Shown here: in pieces, positions 13,652 through 61,274 of the stretch
Layout: each line of letters opens with the position of its first letter
How positions within the stretch are numbered: position 1 is the first letter of the stretch
NCBI GenBank assembly: GCA_031291035.1
Contig: JAISLI010000050.1
Span: forward strand, 1 to 64,000
DNA from: Desulfovibrio sp.
GTDB taxonomy: Bacteria > Desulfobacterota > Desulfovibrionia > Desulfovibrionales > Desulfovibrionaceae
Length of the DNA stretch: 64,000 nucleotides
Direction: 5' to 3'
Made by a program: the position numbers and the translations under genes
The notes under the pieces: model-generated
Database searches by the model: none
What the model saw: the letters and a program-made list of their open reading frames with translations, nothing else
What the model was told of the DNA's origin: nothing

Positions 13652-13772
13652 CAGTTCACATGAAACGAGTGAATGCTCCGCAAGGATTTGCAGGCAAATC
13701 CTTGCCGCGAAACAGGAACAGGCGGGCTTTACCCGCCGTAAGCGAACTGTTTCAAGCGTTAATTGCTGTGGA
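13652..13772 (+). repeat. Dispersed triple-hairpin repeat, family B, copy 1
   Basis: cagttcac..gaaacgagtgaatgctccgcAAGGATTTGCagGCAAATCCTTgccgcgaaacaggaacaGGCGGGctttaCCCGCCgtaagcgaactgtttcaagcgttaattgctgtgga. Confidence 0.85.
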
Positions 13773-14599: not shown

Positions 14600-14712
14600 C
14601 TGTTTCCCGCCGCGCTTGCCGACGTCGCCTTGACGGTCAAGACCGCGCCTGTTACTATGTCTAAGCGGATATACTTCGTCACAAACGGTAATCTCAAGCG
14701 TAAGTCGCTCTT

Positions 14713-14828
14713 GAGCAGTTCACGAATGAAACAAGTGAACCGCTCCGCAAGGATTTGCTTGCAAATCCTTGTCGCGAAACAGGAGCAGGCGGGCTTTGTC
14801 CGACGTAGGCGAACTGTTTCAAGCGTTA
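14713..14828 (+). repeat. Dispersed triple-hairpin repeat, family B, copy 2
   Basis: gcagttcacgaatgaaacaagtgaaccgctccgcAAGGATTTGCttGCAAATCCTTgtcgcgaaacaggagcaggcgggctttgtccgacgtaggcgaactgtttcaagcgtta. Confidence 0.88.
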
Positions 14829-14854
14829 GAGCAATTTCATTTTGAAATTGCTCT
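14828..14854. repeat. Near-perfect hairpin AGAGCAATTTCA-TTT-TGAAATTGCTCT linking B and A elements
   Basis: 12-bp perfect inverted repeat with 3-nt loop, read directly. Confidence 0.9.
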
Positions 14855-14952
14855 GGCGGCGGGGCGGATGCACCGCCGCCCGCCCATGAGGCGCAGGCGA
14901 AACCGCGTTTCGCCGTAAAGCGCCGAAGGGAGCGTTTCAAAAGCAAAATGCT
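14855..14952. repeat. Dispersed repeat, family A, copy 1 (fused to B copy 2)
   Basis: ggcggcggggcggatgcaccgccgcc...gcgaaaccgcgtttcgccgtaaagcgccgaagggagcgtttcaaaagcaaaatgct. Confidence 0.85.
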
Positions 14953-15075
14953 GGCCGGGCGGCCGGCCCGCGCAAGCGCAAAACATGTGCGCGGGCGTCC
15001 GTGCGAACCATCCGGGATGACCGCGCTGCCGGTTCGCCGCAAAACGGGATAGGCCGCACGGGAGCGGAAGGAATC

Positions 15076-23545: not shown

Positions 23546-23556
23546 GTTTCCTTCAG

Positions 23557-23632
23557 GGAGGGGGCAATCCACCCGGCTCCTGTCTGCCGGGGCGGAGTCG
23601 GTTGGCGGATGGAGCCGGCCGTGGATTGAAAC
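23557..23632. repeat. Dispersed imperfect palindromic repeat, family C, copy 2
   Basis: ggagggggcaatccacccggctcctgtctgccggggcggagtcggttggcggatggagccggccgtggattgaaac, 11 bp after the dnaK stop. Confidence 0.8.
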
Positions 23633-26867: not shown

Positions 26868-27611
26868 TCATTCCGGACCCCGCCGCGGGTCAGCGGTTTT
26901 TTCTGAATTCCGTTTGAAATTGCTCTGGCGGCGGGGCGGATGCACCGCCGCCAGCCCATGAAGCGCAGGCGAAACCGCGCTTCGCCGATACGCAATGATG
27001 TCTTTGACCGCCACAACGGGAAACGCGTGGCGCCCGGCAAAGTTGACTATTTCCGGCAGCCGCGCCATGCTGCCGTCATTGTTTGTCAGTTCGCACAGTA
27101 CGCCGCTTGGCGGCAGTCCGGCGAGTTTCATCATATCCACTGTGGCCTCTGTGTGGCCGGGGCGTTCCATAACGCCGCCTTCTTTCGCGACAAGAGGGAA
27201 GACATGCCCCGGATGCCTCAAGTCTTCCGGTTCGGCATCATCCGCGGTGGCCGCTTTGACTGTCGTCACCCGATCGGATGCTGAAACACCGGTAGATACT
27301 CCCCCGGCGGCTTCTATGGAAATTGTAAACGCCGTGCCGTAGGGGCTGGTGTTATTCTCCACCATCGGACGAAGGCGCAGTGATGAGGCTTTTTGGGCGG
27401 TAAGACACAAACAGACGATGCCGCTGCATTCTCTGATGAGTAATGCCATCTGCTCGTCGGTCAGGCTGGCGGTTGAAAAAATAAGGTCACCCTCATTTTC
27501 CCGGTTTTCATCATCCACAACGAGAATGCCATTGCCTTTTTGCAGGGAATTCAGCGCATTGCGAACGCGGACAGCGGGGGAACCAAAAGAAGACAAAAGA
27601 TTCCGGCTCAT
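26868..27611 (-). CDS. ribB: 3,4-dihydroxy-2-butanone-4-phosphate synthase (RibB domain) with repeat-derived C-terminal tail
   Basis: [77 protein letters not shown]; tail after VKDIIAYRR overlaps repeat family A. Confidence 0.93.
26913..26987. repeat. Dispersed repeat, family A, copy 2 (inside the ribB reading frame)
   Basis: tttgaaattgctctggcggcggggcggatgcaccgccgcc identical to 14841-14880; continues gcgaaaccgcgcttcgccg. Confidence 0.9.
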
Positions 27612-27694: not shown

Positions 27695-27842
27695 CATGCC
27701 GTATTCTCTTCCATCCGGACTGTCACCGTCGGTTCCGGAATCGCACCGGATCTGCTGACCCTTTTGCCGTCAAAAGGCGCTCGCGGACTTCTCGATACCG
27801 AGTCATCGCCGGTGGGGATTTACACCCCGCCCTGAGAATACA
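27695..27842 (-). ncRNA. FMN riboswitch (RFN element) upstream of ribB
   Basis: Minus strand ATTCTCAGGGCGGGGTGTAAATCCCCACCGGCGATGA...GTCCGCGAGCG...CAGATCCGGTGCGATTCCGGAACCGACGGTGACAGTCCGGATGGAAGAGAAT, the canonical RFN consensus. Confidence 0.96.
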
Positions 27843-28154
27843 GTCTAATATCCGCTTGTCTCTTTGCCGTGTCAAGAAATGGATGAGGAGCATCCCACAA
27901 ATATTTTTTTTGTCCTCGTCAGCCTGTGGACGATCACGCGCCGGGATGACGAAACCGCGCTTACAAAGGGATAAAGTGGTATTTTTCAGGATTGACTGCC
28001 TGTATCGGGCATATCCTGTACTCGTGACATACCGCGAATACGTCCTTGCCAGCACGGCGGAAAACAATATATTCTGCGACGTTCACAGACGACAGGCATG
28101 AATGGCGGTCCACTGAAATTGAAAGTCGGCCCGCGGCAACCTCCGGAGAAAAGA

Positions 28155-31227: not shown

Positions 31228-33063
31228 TCATTCCACGGTGACGCTTTTGGCAAGATTGCGCGGCTGGTCAACGTCTTTCCCCAGATAGTCGGCCATTTCG
31301 TAGCTGAAAAGCTGGAGGGCGGGCAAAACAACAAAACCGGCCAGAGGAGAGGGCAGGCGGGGGATCGTCCAGATATCGTCAGCCGACAAATCCGTCCCCT
31401 CGTTGGTCAAGGCGATAACCTTGCCCTGACGGGCCTGCACTTCCACAATATTCGATTTCGTCTTGGGAAAGAGCGGGTCGTCAGGAGCAATGGCAAAAGT
31501 TGGAAAGGCGGGATCAACAAGCGCTATGGGCCCGTGTTTCATCTCTCCGGCGGCGTACCCCTCCGCGTGGATATAGGAAAGCTCCTTCAATTTCAGTGCG
31601 CCCTCAAGGGCAAGGGGAAAGCAATGCCCTCTCCCCAGATAAAAAAAATTGTCGGCCTTCGCATACTTTCTTGAAAGTTCCCTCGCTTTTTCATGCATGG
31701 CTGACAAGGCGTCTCCAAGGACGGCGGGCAGGGATACAAGGGCGCTTATCCGTTGGCCGCGCGGGATTTGCCGGGATTCGTCCGTGTTGCCCCGCCGCGC
31801 CTGCCAGTAAAGGGCCAGAAGGGCAAGCATGAGCATTTGGCTGCACATGGCTTTTGTTGACGCCACGCTGATTTCCGGCCCGGCCTGCGTGTACAGAACC
31901 GCCGTGGCCTCACGGGCTATGGAGGAGCCGATGATGTTGCACAGGCCGATGACAGTTGCCCCCCGTTCCCTGGCGATGCGCAACGCGGCAAGCGTGTCCG
32001 CGGTTTCGCCGCTTTGGCTGATAACCAGCGCCATTTCGTCCCTTTCAAACAAAAAATTGTCGCGATGGCGGAATTCCGAAGCAATTTCCACCTGTACGGG
32101 AATGCGCGCCCAATCTTCCAGCAGATGGCGTCCCCAAAGCGCTGAATGCCAGGAAGTGCCGCACGCGACGATATGGAGACGGACAGGCACCGGCAGGCTG
32201 TCCAGTTCGGGAAAAAGCACGCTATCGCCCTGTTCGCTGATACGACCGGCAAGAACGTCCGTCATGACCCTGGGCTGCTCAAAAATTTCTTTGAGCATGT
32301 AGTGCCTGTAGCCGTTCTTCTGGGCGGCCTGCATGTCCCACAGCACTGTTTGCGGCTCGTGGGCGACGGGTTCCAGGTTTTCCAGACGAAATATGTCATA
32401 ATCCCTGGCGGTCGCCCGCACGATATCGCCGTCATCCAAAAAAATAACCTTGCGGGTATAGGGAAGAAACGCTGGAATGTCGGACGCCGCGAAATTTTCG
32501 CCGGTTCCGAGGCCAAAAATAAGGGGGGCGGACATACGGGCCGCATAAAAAGTGTCCGGCGCGTTCCGCTCCATCAGACAAACAGCGTACGCGCCGCGCG
32601 CGCGGCGCAAGGCGGCCGCGAATGCGCGCAGCAGTTCCGGCTCGTCCTTGCGGCATTCGGCAATCAGGTTGACAAGAACCTCCGTGTCTGTTTCCGAATA
32701 AAAGACATAACCTTTTGCGGCGAGTTCCGCTTTCAATTCCTGAAAATTTTCAATGATGCCGTTGTGCACAATGGCCAGGGAATCGTCGTTCGAGCAATGG
32801 GGGTGCGCATTGCGCTCCGCCGGGACGCCGTGAGTGGCCCAACGGGTGTGCCCCATGGCGCATGTCGCCGTGGTTGTCTGCTCGGAGGCGAGTTTCTCCT
32901 CAAGGGCACCCAGTTTTCCTTTGGCGCGTATAACGCGGAAAGAGTTGTTGCGCACAAAGGCCACCCCCGCGGAGTCATACCCGCGGTATTCCAGACGGTG
33001 CAGTCCTTCGACCACTACGGGCACCGCGGGTCTGCGCCCAACGTATCCAATTATGCCGCACAT
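31228..33063 (-). CDS. glmS: Glutamine-fructose-6-phosphate aminotransferase (isomerizing)
   Basis: MCGIIGYVGRRPAVPVVVEGLHRLEYRGYDSAGVAF; C-terminal DVDQPRNLAKSVTVE. Confidence 0.98.
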   Translation of the reverse strand: MCGIIGYVGRRPAVPVVVEGLHRLEYRGYDSAGVAFVRNNSFRVIRAKGKLGALEEKLASEQTTTATCAMGHTRWATHGVPAERNAHPHCSNDDSLAIVHNGIIENFQELKAELAAKGYVFYSETDTEVLVNLIAECRKDEPELLRAFAAALRRARGAYAVCLMERNAPDTFYAARMSAPLIFGLGTGENFAASDIPAFLPYTRKVIFLDDGDIVRATARDYDIFRLENLEPVAHEPQTVLWDMQAAQKNGYRHYMLKEIFEQPRVMTDVLAGRISEQGDSVLFPELDSLPVPVRLHIVACGTSWHSALWGRHLLEDWARIPVQVEIASEFRHRDNFLFERDEMALVISQSGETADTLAALRIARERGATVIGLCNIIGSSIAREATAVLYTQAGPEISVASTKAMCSQMLMLALLALYWQARRGNTDESRQIPRGQRISALVSLPAVLGDALSAMHEKARELSRKYAKADNFFYLGRGHCFPLALEGALKLKELSYIHAEGYAAGEMKHGPIALVDPAFPTFAIAPDDPLFPKTKSNIVEVQARQGKVIALTNEGTDLSADDIWTIPRLPSPLAGFVVLPALQLFSYEMADYLGKDVDQPRNLAKSVTVE

Positions 33064-33072
33064 GAGAATTCT

Positions 33073-33126
33073 CCCGCGTTTCGCCGTAAAGCGCCGAAGG
33101 GAGCGTTTCAAAAGCAAAATGCTCTA
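33073..33126. repeat. Dispersed repeat, family A, copy 3 (between ppiD and glmS)
   Basis: cgcgtttcgccgtaaagcgccgaagggagcgtttcaaaagcaaaatgctcta, identical core to 14915-14952; ends on the ppiD stop codon. Confidence 0.92.
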
Positions 33127-34632
33127 AAGTTCCTTTCGCTCAATAACGCTCCGGTTAAGAATCTCAATCTTCGCCCCGGCGAAAAGGTTGAGCATAAAAG
33201 CTTGAAAAATCCCGTCCGTCCGCTCCCTTGTCGTGATGTTTTCCATCAGTCCCCGCATGCTCTGCCATTCTTCGGGGTCGGGATCATGTATGGCGATTGT
33301 TCGGCATAACATCGCGCCCACGCCTTCTGTTTTGCTGTCAACAGTCAGGACAGTTGCAATCCATTGTTGCGGAGCGGAGGAAAAAACAGCTTCCTCAAGG
33401 GTCGAATCGGGCTCAAAATCCTCCGGTGTTCCCATGCGCTGCAAGGATGCGGTCCGGACGCGGAACTCCTTTTTCTGCGTTTCCGTCAAAGGGGCATTGC
33501 CCAATTTGTCGAGTTGCAAGGCGGCCTGCTCCCTGGCCGCCTCAAGCCCTTTTTCCGCTGTCAAGCGCGCGGTAATAGTCTTTTTGACATCATCGAACGG
33601 CGCTGTGGTTCTTGGCGTCGTTTCCAGCACACGCGCAATGAGATACCTGTCCCGGGCCTCAAGAACGGCATCAACGGGCGAACCCGCGCTGCCCGCAAGA
33701 AGAAGGGCGGCCTTGTCCGGCGCAAGGCCAAACATGTTTTCAAGCTCCGGCTGTGTTGACAGAGCGGTTTTTTGCGCGGACAGACCAAAACGGGCCGCGC
33801 TCTCACCGAGATTTTTGTCAAGGATATTGTCCTCCATCAGCCTGTCAAGAATTTCCTGCAATCTGTCCGCGCTGTCTTGCTGCACTTCAGAATTTTTTCC
33901 CCCGGATGATTTGAGTACGGATTCCGGCTCCACAAGCACATATTCAACGGCAACCCTGGGCGGAAGTATGAAATCTTCCCTGTGCGCGTCATAATACGCC
34001 CGCATTTCCGCATCGGCGGGAGCGGCGGCCGCAAATTTTTTCGCCGGCAGGAAAATATATTCAATCTGCCGCGTTTGCCGCCAAAAATGGTAGCGGTTTT
34101 TTGTCTCATCGGGCGCTGTCCAGGCGGGAGAGGTTATCATGGCATAGAGTTTGTCGCGCAGCAAATCTGTGCGCAACAACTGTTCATACTGGGCAGGGTT
34201 CATGCGCTGCGCGGCCAGGACGCTCTTGTACGCTTCAGGGTCAAAACGACCCTGCGCGTCCTGAAAGACTTTGAGCCGGGCAACCGCCTGACGCAACTCC
34301 AGGGGAGACACCGTTATTCCATGCTCCGCGGCCGCCTGTCCGAGAAGTATGCCGGATGCGAGTTCCTGAAGCACTTGCAGACCCAGCCCGGAGTTTTTCA
34401 ATTCTTCGCGGGTCATGTCGGGAGAATTGCGTAGGGTGGCCTCTTCGGCATTCTGGTAGGCCTGCTCAAACTGCTGCATTTGTATGGCTTCCCCGTTAAC
34501 GGCGGCCACAGTGTTGCCATAGTTCTGATCGGTGAAGCTGCCGACGCCCCAAAATACAAAAACCAGAATAATGATGCCGAATGCCAGCTTAATTCCGAAA
34601 GATTGCGCGTTGGATCGTATATAATCAAGCAT
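33124..34632 (-). CDS. ppiD: Peptidylprolyl isomerase / SurA-PpiD-like periplasmic chaperone
   Basis: MLDYIRSNAQSFGIKLAFGIIILVFVFWGVGSF single N-terminal TM; SurA_N-like region. Confidence 0.82.
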   Translation of the reverse strand: MLDYIRSNAQSFGIKLAFGIIILVFVFWGVGSFTDQNYGNTVAAVNGEAIQMQQFEQAYQNAEEATLRNSPDMTREELKNSGLGLQVLQELASGILLGQAAAEHGITVSPLELRQAVARLKVFQDAQGRFDPEAYKSVLAAQRMNPAQYEQLLRTDLLRDKLYAMITSPAWTAPDETKNRYHFWRQTRQIEYIFLPAKKFAAAAPADAEMRAYYDAHREDFILPPRVAVEYVLVEPESVLKSSGGKNSEVQQDSADRLQEILDRLMEDNILDKNLGESAARFGLSAQKTALSTQPELENMFGLAPDKAALLLAGSAGSPVDAVLEARDRYLIARVLETTPRTTAPFDDVKKTITARLTAEKGLEAAREQAALQLDKLGNAPLTETQKKEFRVRTASLQRMGTPEDFEPDSTLEEAVFSSAPQQWIATVLTVDSKTEGVGAMLCRTIAIHDPDPEEWQSMRGLMENITTRERTDGIFQAFMLNLFAGAKIEILNRSVIERKEL

Positions 34633-36615: not shown

Positions 36616-36785
36616 AATAATCCACTATGTTAATAATAAACGAGAACCGTCAACATATCGTCGCGCGGCGGGACAAGGGTAAATGGCTAGGGAACAAAAC
36701 GGCGTGTGTTGAAGCGACTACCGCATCTTTTCAATGTTGGCAAGAAAAAAAATGAAGTTCGGGAAAAAAACCTCGCGCCCTGGAA

Positions 36786-36907
36786 CAATTAACGCTTGAA
36801 ACAGTTCGCTTACGGCGGGCAAAGCCCGCCTGCTCCTGTTTCGCGGCAAGGATTTTCCGACAAATCCTTGCGGAGCGGTTCACTCGTTTCATTTGTGAAC
36901 CGCTCTA
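36786..36907 (-). repeat. Dispersed triple-hairpin repeat, family B, copy 3 (between carD and rho)
   Basis: Minus strand TAGAGCGGTTCACAAATGAAACGAGTGAACCGCTCCGCAAGGATTTGTCGGAAAATCCTTGCCGCGAAACAGGAGCAGGCGGGCTTTGCCCGCCGTAAGCGAACTGTTTCAAGCGTTA. Confidence 0.92.
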
Positions 36908-37453
36908 GCCGACAGCCTCTGTCGGGGCCAGTTGCTCCGGAAGGGAAGAAATTTTCTGTCGGCAGCATTGCGTGTAAATGTCAAAAAGCTCTTCGCGCAG
37001 GGCGTCTTTTGACACCTCCAGCACTTCGGCGAGCTCTCCGGCGACAAGATTCATGGACAGTTCCTGCAGACGGCGTTCTCCAAAGGAGAGTTCCTTGTTT
37101 TTGCCGATAAGTAAAAGTTCACGTAATACTTCAATAACAACATGCAGACTGTGGCTTTTCAATCTTTCGGAATATTCACGGAAACGGCGATTCCAGTTTT
37201 GACCTGTGCAGATGGTTCTGCCGGTATCATTTCGCAGACTTTGCAGGATGCGTTCCGCCTCGGTATGCGAGACAAGGGGACGCAACCCCACCTTGTCGGC
37301 GTTGTTGACCGGCACCATGAGTATGACGTTGTTGGAGCGGATGCGGACAACGTAAAACGGGCATGTGCCGCCGTCAATTTTTTGCCTGTCTATGCGTTCA
37401 ATTATGCCAACCCCTTGGGCCGGATACACCACGAGATCATTCAGAGCAAACAT
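36905..37453 (-). CDS. carD: CarD family transcriptional regulator
   Basis: [50 protein letters not shown]. Confidence 0.92.
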
Positions 37454-39197: not shown

Positions 39198-39252
39198 GAT
39201 GGACGCGCGGGCTGAAATCGGCTGTTGTGGCCTGATTTTTGCGTATACACAC
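39198..39252 (+). repeat. Dispersed repeat, family D, copy 1
   Basis: ggatggacgcgcgggctgaaatcggctgttgtggcctgatttttgcgtatacaca; inverse of 41477-41524. Confidence 0.7.
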
Positions 39253-39796: not shown

Positions 39797-39860
39797 GCGG
39801 TTCACGAATGAAACGGGTGAACCGCCCGGCAAGGATTTGCGGGCCGTGAGCGAACACGCT
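39797..39860 (+). repeat. Family B repeat, truncated copy (first hairpin retained)
   Basis: GCGGTTCACgaatgaaacggGTGAACCGCccggcaaggatttgcg. Confidence 0.7.
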
Positions 39861-40854: not shown

Positions 40855-41307
40855 ATGGACAGGGCTCTGGACCTTGCCCGCCGGGGAGCCGCGGCCGGGG
40901 AGGTGCCGGTCGGCGCGCTGGTTGTGGGGCGGGGGGGAGAGATTCTCGCCGAGGCGCACAACGCGCCCGTCGGTCTGCGCGATCCTACGGCCCATGCGGA
41001 AATCCTGGCCCTGCGCGCGGCGTGCGGGGCACTGGGCAATTATCGCCTTGGGGGATGTACGCTTGTCGTCACCTTGGAGCCGTGCCCCATGTGCGCGGCG
41101 GCCCTTGCGCATGCGCGGCTTGACGGGCTTGTTTTCGGCGCCGCCGACGAGGCGGCCGGGGCTGTCGTCTCCCGGGCGGAATACCTGGACATGCCGGCAA
41201 ACCACAAAATCTGGCACATGGGCGGCGTGCGGGCGCGGGACTGCGCCGTCCTGCTGCGCGACTTCTTCGCCCGGAAGAGAGAGGGGGCCGGGGCGGTTCA
41301 CGAATGA
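40855..41307 (+). CDS. tadA: tRNA adenosine(34) deaminase TadA
   Basis: EVPVGALVV; PTAHAEILALRAA (HAE); TLEPCPMCAAALAHARL (PCxxC). Confidence 0.92.
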   Translation: MDRALDLARRGAAAGEVPVGALVVGRGGEILAEAHNAPVGLRDPTAHAEILALRAACGALGNYRLGGCTLVVTLEPCPMCAAALAHARLDGLVFGAADEAAGAVVSRAEYLDMPANHKIWHMGGVRARDCAVLLRDFFARKREGAGAVHE

Positions 41308-41476: not shown

Positions 41477-41524
41477 ACTGTGTATGCAAAAATCAGGCCA
41501 AAATAGCCGATTTCAGCCCGCGCG
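41477..41524 (-). repeat. Dispersed repeat, family D, copy 2 (inverted)
   Basis: actgtgtatgcaaaaatcaggccaaaatagccgatttcagcccgcgcg vs reverse complement of 39198-39252. Confidence 0.7.
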
Positions 41525-41567
41525 GCCCTTTCCCGCGGGTAAAGGAAAACCCGCCTCTTCCCCACAG

Positions 41568-42362: not shown

Positions 42363-42410
42363 GATGTTTTCCCGTGTGTTAAACGGCCGCGCCGGGACGC
42401 CTTGCCCCAG

Positions 42411-42475
42411 TTGCCGCGAAACAGGAGCGGGCGGGCTTTGCCCGCCGTAAGCGAACTGTTTCAGGCGTCAATCGC
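42411..42475 (+). repeat. Family B repeat, right-half copy (between ligA and dapB)
   Basis: gccgcgaaacaggagcGGGCGGGctttGCCCGCCgtaagcgaactgtttcaggcgtcaatcg. Confidence 0.85.
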
Positions 42476-44555
42476 TATGGAGCAACCGCATAAATTCAGA
42501 CTCGGTCAGTATCGGTATGCCTAGGGAGCGGGCCTTTTCAAGTTTGCCGCCCGGCGATTCTCCCGCCACAAGGTAGTCAAGATTTCTGCTTATGCCCCCG
42601 GCCGGCATCGCCCCCGCGGCCTCAGCCAGTTGGCGGGCGCGATGTCTCGGCAGTGAGAGGGTTCCCGTGAACAGCACGCTTTTTCCCCGCAACGGATTCG
42701 GGGCGCGCGCATTCTCCTCGGCCTGTCTTCGAGGCCAGAGGCCCAGCGCGCGAAACCGCGTCAACAGAGCGCGGTTCCCCGCGTTATCGAAAAAGCTTGT
42801 TATGGAAGACGCCACTTCCGGGCCGATATCCGGCAGGGACTGGAGCGTCTCCGCGTCGGAGCCGGCCAATTCGTCCAGATCGCGATAGCGTTCGGCCAGC
42901 AGACGGGCTGTCTGCTCGCCCACGTGGCGGATGCCGAGCGCGCAGATCAGTTGCTTGAGCGAGGCGCTTTGTCTGGCTTTTTCAAGCGAGGCAAGAAATT
43001 TTCGGGCCAATGTCTCTCCCATGCGCTCGAATTTCAACAAATCATCCAAGGTCAGATCAAAAAGATCCGCCGGAGAGCTGACCCGGCCCGAGTCGGCAAG
43101 CTTCTCCATCCAGCTTGACCCCAGACCCTGAATGTCCAGCCCCGCCCTGGAAACGAAGTGTTCCAGGCTGCGCAGACGAACGTCGGGACAGGAGAGATTG
43201 CCGCAACGCCACGCGATTCCGCCGCTTTCCCTGTATCCCTTTTCACCGCATGCCGGACAGACATTCGGAAAAACGTAGGAAACGGAATTTTCCGGGCGCA
43301 TGGACAAAACCGGCCCCACAACTTCGGGAATGACGTCCCCGGCCCGCTGAATGATGACGGTATCCCCTTCGCGTACATCGCGCCTGACGATTTCGTCCTC
43401 ATTGTGCAAGGTCGCGCGGGAGACCACCACTCCCCCCACAAGCGTCGGCGCCAGCACGGCCACCGGCGTGAACACGCCCGTGCGGCCGACCTGTATTTCA
43501 ATGCGCTCAAGCCGCGTTCGCGCCTGATTCGCCGGAAATTTGAAGGCCACGGCGAAACGCGGAGCGCTAGCCGTATAGTCAAGGTCTTTCTGGTCTTCAA
43601 GGCTGTCCAGCTTGATGACCACGCCGTCGATTTCCATGGGAAACAACTGCCGGCGCATCCTCACCGAGGCCGCATATTCCTCGACTTCCTTCAGGCCGGA
43701 ACAAAGCTTTCCATCAGGAGGCGTCAGAAATCCCCACGATTTCAGACGTTCCATGACATCGTGGTGGCGGGTGGAAGGGACGGCCTCTCCCCAATCGACA
43801 TTGCCGACATTGTACGCCAGAAAACGCAGGGGACGGGACCGCGCGACCGCGATATCCAGCTGGCGCACGGCGCCCGCCGCGGCATTGCGGGGATTGGCGA
43901 AAATTTTCCGGCCGAGTTCTTCCTGGCGTTTGTTCAATTGCGCGAAATCATGTTTATACAGTATCGCTTCACCCCGAACCGCCAGCGAGGCCGGAAACGG
44001 CCCTTCGCCGCGCAGGCGCGGGGGTACGGTTCTGATCGTCCGCACCGCCCGGGTGACCACCTCTCCGCGCGTGCCGTCACCCCTGGTGAGAGCTTCGGCC
44101 AGCACGCCGTTTTCAAAAACAATCTCCAGCGCCAGCCCGTCCAGTTTGGGGTCGCACCAGAACGAGAGCGGGCGGCCGGGCAGGGCGCGCGCCATACGTT
44201 CGGCAAAGGCGCGCCATTCGGTTTTCGAAAACACTTTTTCCAGACCGTACATGCGGCTGCCGTGATCTTTTTTGGCGAGTCCTTCCAGCAGTCCGCCGCC
44301 CACGCGCAGCGTGGGTGAAGAGGGGCTGCGCAGATCCGGGTATTCGCGCTCCAATGCCTCAAGTTCCCTGAACAGGGCGTCGTATTCATCATCGCTGATT
44401 TCCGGCGCGTCCAGAGTATGGTACAGATAGTTGTGCCGGTGCAGCTCCGCGGCCAGCCATTCCATGCGCCGCCGATCCTTTTCGGCGTGCCCGGCCTGGA
44501 GTGACGGCCGGCGGGGCTGTTTCATGTACCGGGAAAATCGGTTTCGGGATGACAT
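42468..44555 (-). CDS. ligA: NAD-dependent DNA ligase
   Basis: ISDDEYDALFRELEALEREYPDL; CDPKLDGLALEIVFENG; zinc finger CPACGEKG...CGNLSCPDV; BRCT end. Confidence 0.98.
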   Translation of the reverse strand: MSSRNRFSRYMKQPRRPSLQAGHAEKDRRRMEWLAAELHRHNYLYHTLDAPEISDDEYDALFRELEALEREYPDLRSPSSPTLRVGGGLLEGLAKKDHGSRMYGLEKVFSKTEWRAFAERMARALPGRPLSFWCDPKLDGLALEIVFENGVLAEALTRGDGTRGEVVTRAVRTIRTVPPRLRGEGPFPASLAVRGEAILYKHDFAQLNKRQEELGRKIFANPRNAAAGAVRQLDIAVARSRPLRFLAYNVGNVDWGEAVPSTRHHDVMERLKSWGFLTPPDGKLCSGLKEVEEYAASVRMRRQLFPMEIDGVVIKLDSLEDQKDLDYTASAPRFAVAFKFPANQARTRLERIEIQVGRTGVFTPVAVLAPTLVGGVVVSRATLHNEDEIVRRDVREGDTVIIQRAGDVIPEVVGPVLSMRPENSVSYVFPNVCPACGEKGYRESGGIAWRCGNLSCPDVRLRSLEHFVSRAGLDIQGLGSSWMEKLADSGRVSSPADLFDLTLDDLLKFERMGETLARKFLASLEKARQSASLKQLICALGIRHVGEQTARLLAERYRDLDELAGSDAETLQSLPDIGPEVASSITSFFDNAGNRALLTRFRALGLWPRRQAEENARAPNPLRGKSVLFTGTLSLPRHRARQLAEAAGAMPAGGISRNLDYLVAGESPGGKLEKARSLGIPILTESEFMRLLHSD

Positions 44556-46588: not shown

Positions 46589-46653
46589 GTGCCGGTGAAA
46601 ATCATAGGTATTCTCGCCGTTCTCCGCAACAGCATTTTTGCCGGTTCCCCATC

Positions 46654-46709
46654 CCGCCGTAAAGCGCCGAAGGGAGCGTTTAAAAGGCAAAATGCTCTAA
46701 TTGCTGTAG
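46654..46709. repeat. Dispersed repeat, family A, copy 4 (between prmC and uvrB)
   Basis: cgccgtaaagcgccgaagggagcgtttaaaaggcaaaatgctctaattgctgtag; spans the prmC stop codon. Confidence 0.9.
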
Positions 46710-47557
46710 CCCTTCACGGCGCAGGTGCAGCGTTCCAGACCGGCTAGGTCACGAAATGTTTTTGCCTTGCGGAAAGAGCCGGCGCCGTCAAACAATGCGC
46801 GCGCGCGCGCGCCCTGTTCCGCGCCGTGTTCCACAAGCGCCAAGCCGTTTTTTTTGAGTGCGCGCGCGGCCAGACGGATGGCGGCTTCAAGATGGGCGGC
46901 GCCCTCAAGGGGAGAAAAGAGCGCTTCGTGCGGTTCGAAGCGCAGCACTTCAGCCATGACCCGCGCTGTTTCGGACTCCCCGATATAGGGAGGGTTGCTT
47001 ACCACAAGATCGCAGGAGCATGATTGTAGCGGCGCACGGCGCATATCTGCCTGAACATACGTGAGTTTTGAGGACGCTTCAAGTCTTCGGGCGTTGATTT
47101 TTGCGACTTCAAGCGCCTTTCCGGAAATGTCCAGGAGCATGCCGCGCCAGAGCCTGCGTTCCAAAACCAGGGTTATGCCGATGCATCCGGAGCCTGAGCC
47201 GACATCCACAAAAAACAGGCGGCGGGACTCCGGCAGAAGCGCAAGGGCCGTCTCAACCAGTAATTCCGTTTCGGGGCGCGGGATCAGGGTATCCGGGGTA
47301 ACGTGAAAATTACGGCTGAAAAATTCTTTTTGACCGAGAATATAGGCCAGAGGCTCTCCGTTGATCCTGCGGAGAACCAGCTGGTTCAGCAGTGAAATCT
47401 GTTCCTCCGCCAACGCCCTGTCAACACCGGCGATACAATCCAGAGGGCTGATTTCAAGAAGGTGGCAAACCAGAAGCCTGGCGCACAGGAGCGGGCTGTC
47501 CACCCCGGCGGCGCCGAGTCGCCGTCCGGCTTCCGTTACATAACGGCGCAGACGCAT
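46697..47557 (-). CDS. prmC: Peptide chain release factor N(5)-glutamine methyltransferase
   Basis: LIPRPETELLVETAL; DVGSGSGCIGITL; LVVSNPPYIGESE. Confidence 0.95.
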   Translation of the reverse strand: MRLRRYVTEAGRRLGAAGVDSPLLCARLLVCHLLEISPLDCIAGVDRALAEEQISLLNQLVLRRINGEPLAYILGQKEFFSRNFHVTPDTLIPRPETELLVETALALLPESRRLFFVDVGSGSGCIGITLVLERRLWRGMLLDISGKALEVAKINARRLEASSKLTYVQADMRRAPLQSCSCDLVVSNPPYIGESETARVMAEVLRFEPHEALFSPLEGAAHLEAAIRLAARALKKNGLALVEHGAEQGARARALFDGAGSFRKAKTFRDLAGLERCTCAVKGYSN

Positions 47558-61174: not shown

Positions 61175-61210
61175 ATTGGAGCACGTCACGTTGGAGCGAA
61201 TTGGGGCAGT

Positions 61211-61274
61211 TCACCCGGCTCCTGTCCGCCGGGCTGGAAGCAGTCAGCGGATGGAGCCGGCTGTGGATTGAAAC
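61211..61274. repeat. Dispersed imperfect palindromic repeat, family C, copy 3
   Basis: tcacccggctcctgtccgccgggctggaagcagtcagcggatggagccggctgtggattgaaac. Confidence 0.8.

Follow-up and report, generated by a model that had tools for sequence, protein, structure and literature searches.

Insertion at a YTAR target probably explains why short IS630-type elements of a Desulfovibrio genome sit on stop codons

Two families of short repeats in a Desulfovibrio genome, referred to here as A and B, are very probably non-autonomous IS630-type MITEs whose YTAR target makes stop codons landing sites and whose starting G rebuilds the stop as TAG. An in-frame TAR is by definition a stop codon (TAA or TAG), so stop codons are the only in-frame YTAR targets, and because the first base of the element is G, the interrupted stop is rebuilt as TAG. 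The window analyzed here is a 64,000-nucleotide stretch of a 2.04-Mb host genome (51 contigs) with kin in Desulfovibrio. Genome-wide counts were drawn from 385 kb of stretches around element copies, on which genes were called by codon usage for this analysis rather than taken from external annotation.

A (129 bp, TAGAGCAATTTCACTTTGAAATTGCTCT...GAGCGTTTCAAAAGCAAAATGCTCTA) and B (127 bp, TAGAGCGGTTCACGAATGAAACGAGTGAACCGCTC...AGCGAACTGTTTCAAGCGTTAATTGCTSTA), measured with the TA at both ends included, number about 100 copies in the host genome among the matches listed. Both are short (127-130 bp), lack a transposase gene, and are predicted to form strong multi-hairpin folds (z -5.6 for A and -7.3 for B). 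A 22-nt terminal inverted repeat of the form TAGAGCNNTTNNCNNTTGAAAC is common to all four ends; its third base is usually C at the B right end. No Rfam family matches A or B, and no account of them in Desulfovibrio turned up in a literature search. Copies located in the window by nhmmer include a nearly full-length B (13652..13770, + strand), a B left part attached to no gene end (39797..39844, +), and a composite (14711..14955, +) in which an A with a deleted right edge lies at a TTA inside the B right repeat, an arrangement also seen at L039 and L056. A third, TA-flanked hairpin module (GAGCAGTCCAACTTTGAAAAAGTTGGACTGCTC) adjoins some A and B copies (L022 and L025, on other contigs) and could itself be another short element. 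The window also holds a repeat family of 72-84 nt (GGGGCAATCCACCCGGCTCCTGTCTGCCGGGG...GTGGATTGAAAC; 1226-1309, 23548-23632, and 61203-61274) that is unrelated to A and B, with copies 82-90% alike, one of them 3' of a tRNA gene.

The insertion target was read from 158 intact element ends, and from 58 elements with both ends intact. TA flanks 119 of the 158 ends, and most of the others carry CA or TG, one transition away. Paired elements have TA on both sides in 34 of 58 cases, and in 20 more a single transition has changed one copy. When the empty sites were rebuilt, Y-TA-R was found at 50 of 58, compared with 12.8% of intergenic TAs (p = 1.6e-36). The rebuilt targets were CTAG (13), TTAG (16), TTAA (14), and CTAA (7), a rule wider than the CTAG-specific targeting of IS630, which was rejected as a description of these elements. 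A direct view of such a site is provided by carD in a close relative (G001, 86-90% identical DNA), where the empty site, with a single TA, reads GTCGGT TAA AGCGCAAGG against GTCGGC TA[B]CA GGGCGCGAGG in the host.

Terminal sequences connect the elements to the IS630 family. IS630 elements of the genus start with TAGAGCAATT..ACTTT and carry an inverted copy at the other end; they include the 993-bp L281 of genome G048 (326-codon open frame), the 995-bp L279 of G022 (partial frame), and the 997-bp L291 of G025 (322-codon open frame). The A left end matches these ends at 19-20 of 22 positions, and the A right end matches decayed IS630 copies in the host genome, which retain the right end TAGAGCATTTTGCTATTGAAA, at 20 of 22. 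The B ends fit the terminal consensus but match IS630 less closely (14-17 of 22). The transposases of L291 and L281 belong to DDE_3 (Pfam; E = 1.7e-36 and 1.4e-33), so that the lineage has a candidate partner in intact proteins within same-ended elements of G025 and G048. In the host genome, a search for an intact transposase bounded by precisely the ends of A or B found only fragments with these ends. Judged from these sequences, A and B would have been mobilized in trans by an IS630-family (Tc1/mariner-type DDE) transposase. One further locus (L095, 1406-1830) holds an IS630 copy with an internal deletion and TAGAGCGTTTTAACTTTCA inverted repeats at both ends, a possible IS-to-MITE intermediate. 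A different origin, as palindromes of the REP/BIME type dispersed by a RAYT (Y1) transposase, would fit the palindromic, intergenic, multi-hairpin character of A and B, and two Y1_Tnp matches occur in the host genome. However, both matches are broken or partial, no A or B copy lies near them, and no intact RAYT flanked by A or B was found; the duplicated TA and the match of the inverted repeats to IS630 also speak against it. We rejected this origin as extremely unlikely.

Five genes in the window illustrate the outcome, and the repeat edges that the first-pass annotation had placed at their stops are all present in the sequence. The two simplest cases are carD and ppiD. The carD gene (36905..37453, - strand; Pfam CarD) ends in EAVG-stop, as it does in G001, with the junction GTC GGC TAG followed by AGCGGTTCAC; a full B (36781..36907, -) occupies the TA of the stop. 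The ppiD gene (33124..34632, -; SurA_N/PPIase Pfam) ends in ERKEL-stop, with GAA CTT TAG followed by AGCATTTTGC, and an A right part (33054..33126, +; nhmmer) lies at the stop. Element-free relatives end ppiD at the same place, as TTT TAA in G001 and TTG TAG in G046. A comparison with the C-termini of relatives lacking the repeat had been suggested; PrmC, LigA, and TadA differ from these, while CarD and PpiD end where their orthologs do.

At prmC (46697..47557, -; 286 aa, ending KGYSN-stop; PrmC_N Pfam match) the junction reads TAC AGC AAT TAG followed by AGCATTTTGC. The right half of an A (46644..46699, +; nhmmer, query positions 74-129), absent in relatives, lies between prmC and uvrB, and its right TA (46698-46699) forms the prmC TAG stop. 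The adjoining ATTGCTGTA (46700..46708, +) corresponds to the outermost 9 nt of a B element on its right side; since A elements insert inside B at TTA, and by parallel with the other A-in-B composites, this extension beside prmC is explained as the remainder of a B entered by the A. ATTGCTGTA encodes the YSN tail of PrmC, the TA of the original stop having become TAC through the B end, and the protein is 3 residues longer than in relatives, whose PrmC stops 3 codons earlier. In ligA (42468..44465, -, stop at 42468-42470; Pfam and ortholog comparison) a B right part (42410..42479, +; nhmmer, d = -9 in the end table) lies in the last codons, giving CTC CAT AGC GAT TGA followed by CGCC. The product ends LLHSD-stop, 2 residues shorter than that of G001 (LLQSGNS-stop). 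The weakest of the five junctions is that of tadA (40855..41307, +; 150 aa; deaminase Pfam), whose 3' end GCG GTT CAC GAA TGA coincides with a B left-end remnant (CGGGGCGGTTCACGAATGA, 41289..41307, +) of which only ~19 nt remain. As read from the sequence, this remnant makes the AVHE-stop tail, where the G001 TadA ends KRAGG-stop. The window also holds a 49-nt inverted repeat (39201-39249 and 41479-41527), 90% complementary over a separation of 2.2 kb and unrelated to A and B.

The coincidence of repeat ends with stop codons extends beyond the window and beyond chance. In 32 of the 158 intact ends, the TA supplies the opening T and A of the TAG at which the incoming gene stops, and 23 of the 58 paired elements (40%) lie at a stop. 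Tabulated by distance, element copies are thus not randomly placed relative to stop codons. Chance overlap of TA-bearing ends with stops would have some room, as stops account for 5% of the intergenic TA sites left unoccupied and for 11% of the YTAR sites among them, but the paired elements exceed both backgrounds (odds ratio 12, p = 2e-14 for TA; odds ratio 5.4, p = 7e-7 for YTAR). These counts lead us to reject chance, whose probability is negligible.

The same 40% could mean that the elements specifically prefer the 3' ends of genes, or terminators, guided by structure or transcription rather than by a short sequence. Against this, the strong YTAR rule holds equally at sites away from stops, including sites inside other elements, and in genes that end in TGA the insertions lie at TAs beyond the stop, not on it. 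We therefore regard such a dedicated preference as very unlikely; the target preference suggested in the first-pass annotation exists, but its object is YTAR rather than the gene 3' end.

Comparison with element-free orthologs in G001 distinguishes landing on a stop from supplying one. Of the 25 genes with an element at the stop and an ortholog in this closest relative, 22 have their stop (TAA, TAG, or TGA) at the identical codon there, and the sequence beyond is unrelated, which indicates that the usual event is insertion into an existing stop. Of the earlier suggestion that the elements land on or supply stop codons, landing is accordingly the main mode and supply a minority (about 7 genes). 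These data also bear on the proposal that selection for function is responsible, in that insertions that end translation, or hairpins that protect or process mRNA 3' ends, benefit the upstream gene. First, with the stop already at the same codon in those 22 orthologs, none had to be supplied. Second, among YTARs 0-60 nt past stops, 29 unoccupied sites coincide with the stop and 26 lie past it, and for occupied ends the numbers are 32 and 18 (odds ratio 1.6, p = 0.32); restricted to paired YTAR sites within 60 nt, the division is 21 and 8 (odds ratio 2.35, p = 0.10), again no significant excess. Finally, the occupied sites are not shared with the closest relative, and so give no sign of long-term retention. 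On the other side stand the very stable hairpins, an orientation bias of the left end at stops, and the excess above all intergenic YTAR sites. Taken together, these points make selection for function unlikely, and selection for translation-ending insertions, as first suggested, is not required, since occupied and unoccupied YTARs near stops do not differ significantly.

Near gene ends, then, the YTAR rule suffices to explain the pattern, given the power that the data afford. Against the background of all intergenic YTARs, however, insertions at stops are in 5-fold excess, so some purging or further preference is needed; this leftover excess would be explained most simply by loss of copies at promoter-side positions. 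Outside the host genome the effect is of uncertain strength, replication being weak: a small set of related elements from G046, G017, G002, G054, and G055 yielded only 4 stop junctions, and the end motif also matched inner hairpin arms.

The orientation of the elements adds a second pattern. The left end faces the gene in a ratio of 26:6 at stops, compared with 6:12 at 1-60 nt downstream (p = 0.0016), and the left hairpins begin at or beside the stop. For B, a right end facing the gene would in most cases abolish the stop. For A alone the ratio of left to right ends toward the gene is 13:5 at stops and 2:9 at 1-60 nt downstream (p = 0.008), and this bias is predicted by nothing in the target mechanism. 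The left hairpin may act at the 3' end of the mRNA. A broader version, in which the ends of the IS630 lineage were shaped for harmless landing (YTAR, G, and TGA at +16) and left-hairpin copies were kept as mRNA 3' structures, appears rather unlikely to us. If such copies were retained, the left-end bias would be explained, and if the ends were so shaped, insertions would be almost invisible to host proteins.

The element ends also carry stops of their own in the direction of entry, as the first-pass annotation had held: TAG at position 0 (with TAA or TGA at +9 in B right ends) and, for 143 of the 158 ends, TGA at +16. Two frames thus contain stops; the third is open, and no open-frame fusions were seen among the tabulated ends, where numbers are small. 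In the genes for which the element supplies the last codons, the reading frame always closes only a few residues from where the ortholog ends, and the G001 orthologs end within a few residues without the tails. The claim that PrmC and LigA share a tail encoded by the same repeat edge was borne out, as the B right end is read in frame 0 in PrmC (..KGYSN-stop), in LigA (..LLHSD-stop), and in a third gene, C26:79947, with an identical YSN (..RPYSN-stop). The B left end, in another frame, gives the tails of TadA (..GAVHE-stop), C51:25038 (..FRAVHE-stop), C43:60421 (..VRAVHE-stop), and C26:24178 (..RALHE-stop). Unrelated proteins (PrmC, LigA, TadA, and others) thereby come to end in the same short run of residues, a likeness that could wrongly be taken for a common motif. 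A separate case is RibB (26868-27611, -), downstream of an FMN riboswitch (27699-27843), which apparently has ~30 extra C-terminal residues from antisense reading of a truncated A that overlaps the ribB 3' end (26906..26999, +; nhmmer).

A and B insert at Y-TA-R and duplicate the TA, as their anatomy and the empty sites show, and we hypothesize that an IS630-family transposase moves them in trans. In-frame targets are TAA or TAG stops, at which the TA-G junction restores TAG and leaves the protein unchanged. Where an element enters a gene out of frame, or where a B right end, with its initial C, abolishes the stop, the gene would be closed within ~20 nt and gain a short element-coded tail (YSN, HSD, or AVHE). 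Copies elsewhere in genes or on the promoter side would presumably be purged, leaving an excess at gene ends. Such a mechanism would offer a simple reason for small transposons piling up at bacterial gene ends: the target letters occur in frame only at stops, and the element end repairs the stop.

The nearest described kind of element is RUP of Streptococcus pneumoniae, a 107-bp MITE linked to IS630-Spn1. Like A and B, RUP is a short intergenic repeat of ~100 copies with terminal inverted repeats like those of a resident IS630 and insertion at TA (PMC3049150, PMC2229807). RUP differs in sequence and host, IS elements are reported as its favored targets, and no stop-codon rule is reported for it in these two papers. 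ISY100 likewise transposes into TA with duplication (PMC2170065), and a preference of IS630 for TA in CTAG, one form of YTAR, is cited there from Tenzen and Ohtsubo 1991. Unlike these autonomous elements, A and B lack a transposase and also use TTAG/CTAA and TTAA. QMITE1 and QMITE2 of Coxiella burnetii resemble A and B in that they overlap the final bases of genes and extend proteins with C-termini encoded by the element (PMC5896051), but belong to other sequence families, with no stop-linked target rule described; enterobacterial MITEs that overlap gene ends or extend proteins have also been reported (PMC2759123). Correia elements of Neisseria (100-155 bp) and ERIC/RU-1 of enterobacteria (ERIC, 127 bp) are MITEs of similar size to A and B, with TA at their termini and some copies fused to genes (PMC2229807, PMC2759123, PMC10969869), although Correia copies lie largely upstream of genes and carry promoters, whereas A and B favor gene 3' ends. 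The words "stop codon" are absent from a recent review of prokaryotic MITEs (PMC10969869), and explaining stop landing by a target rule may not have been spelled out previously, though it follows from known principles. A and B belong to a known type of element and show an unusually clean target effect.
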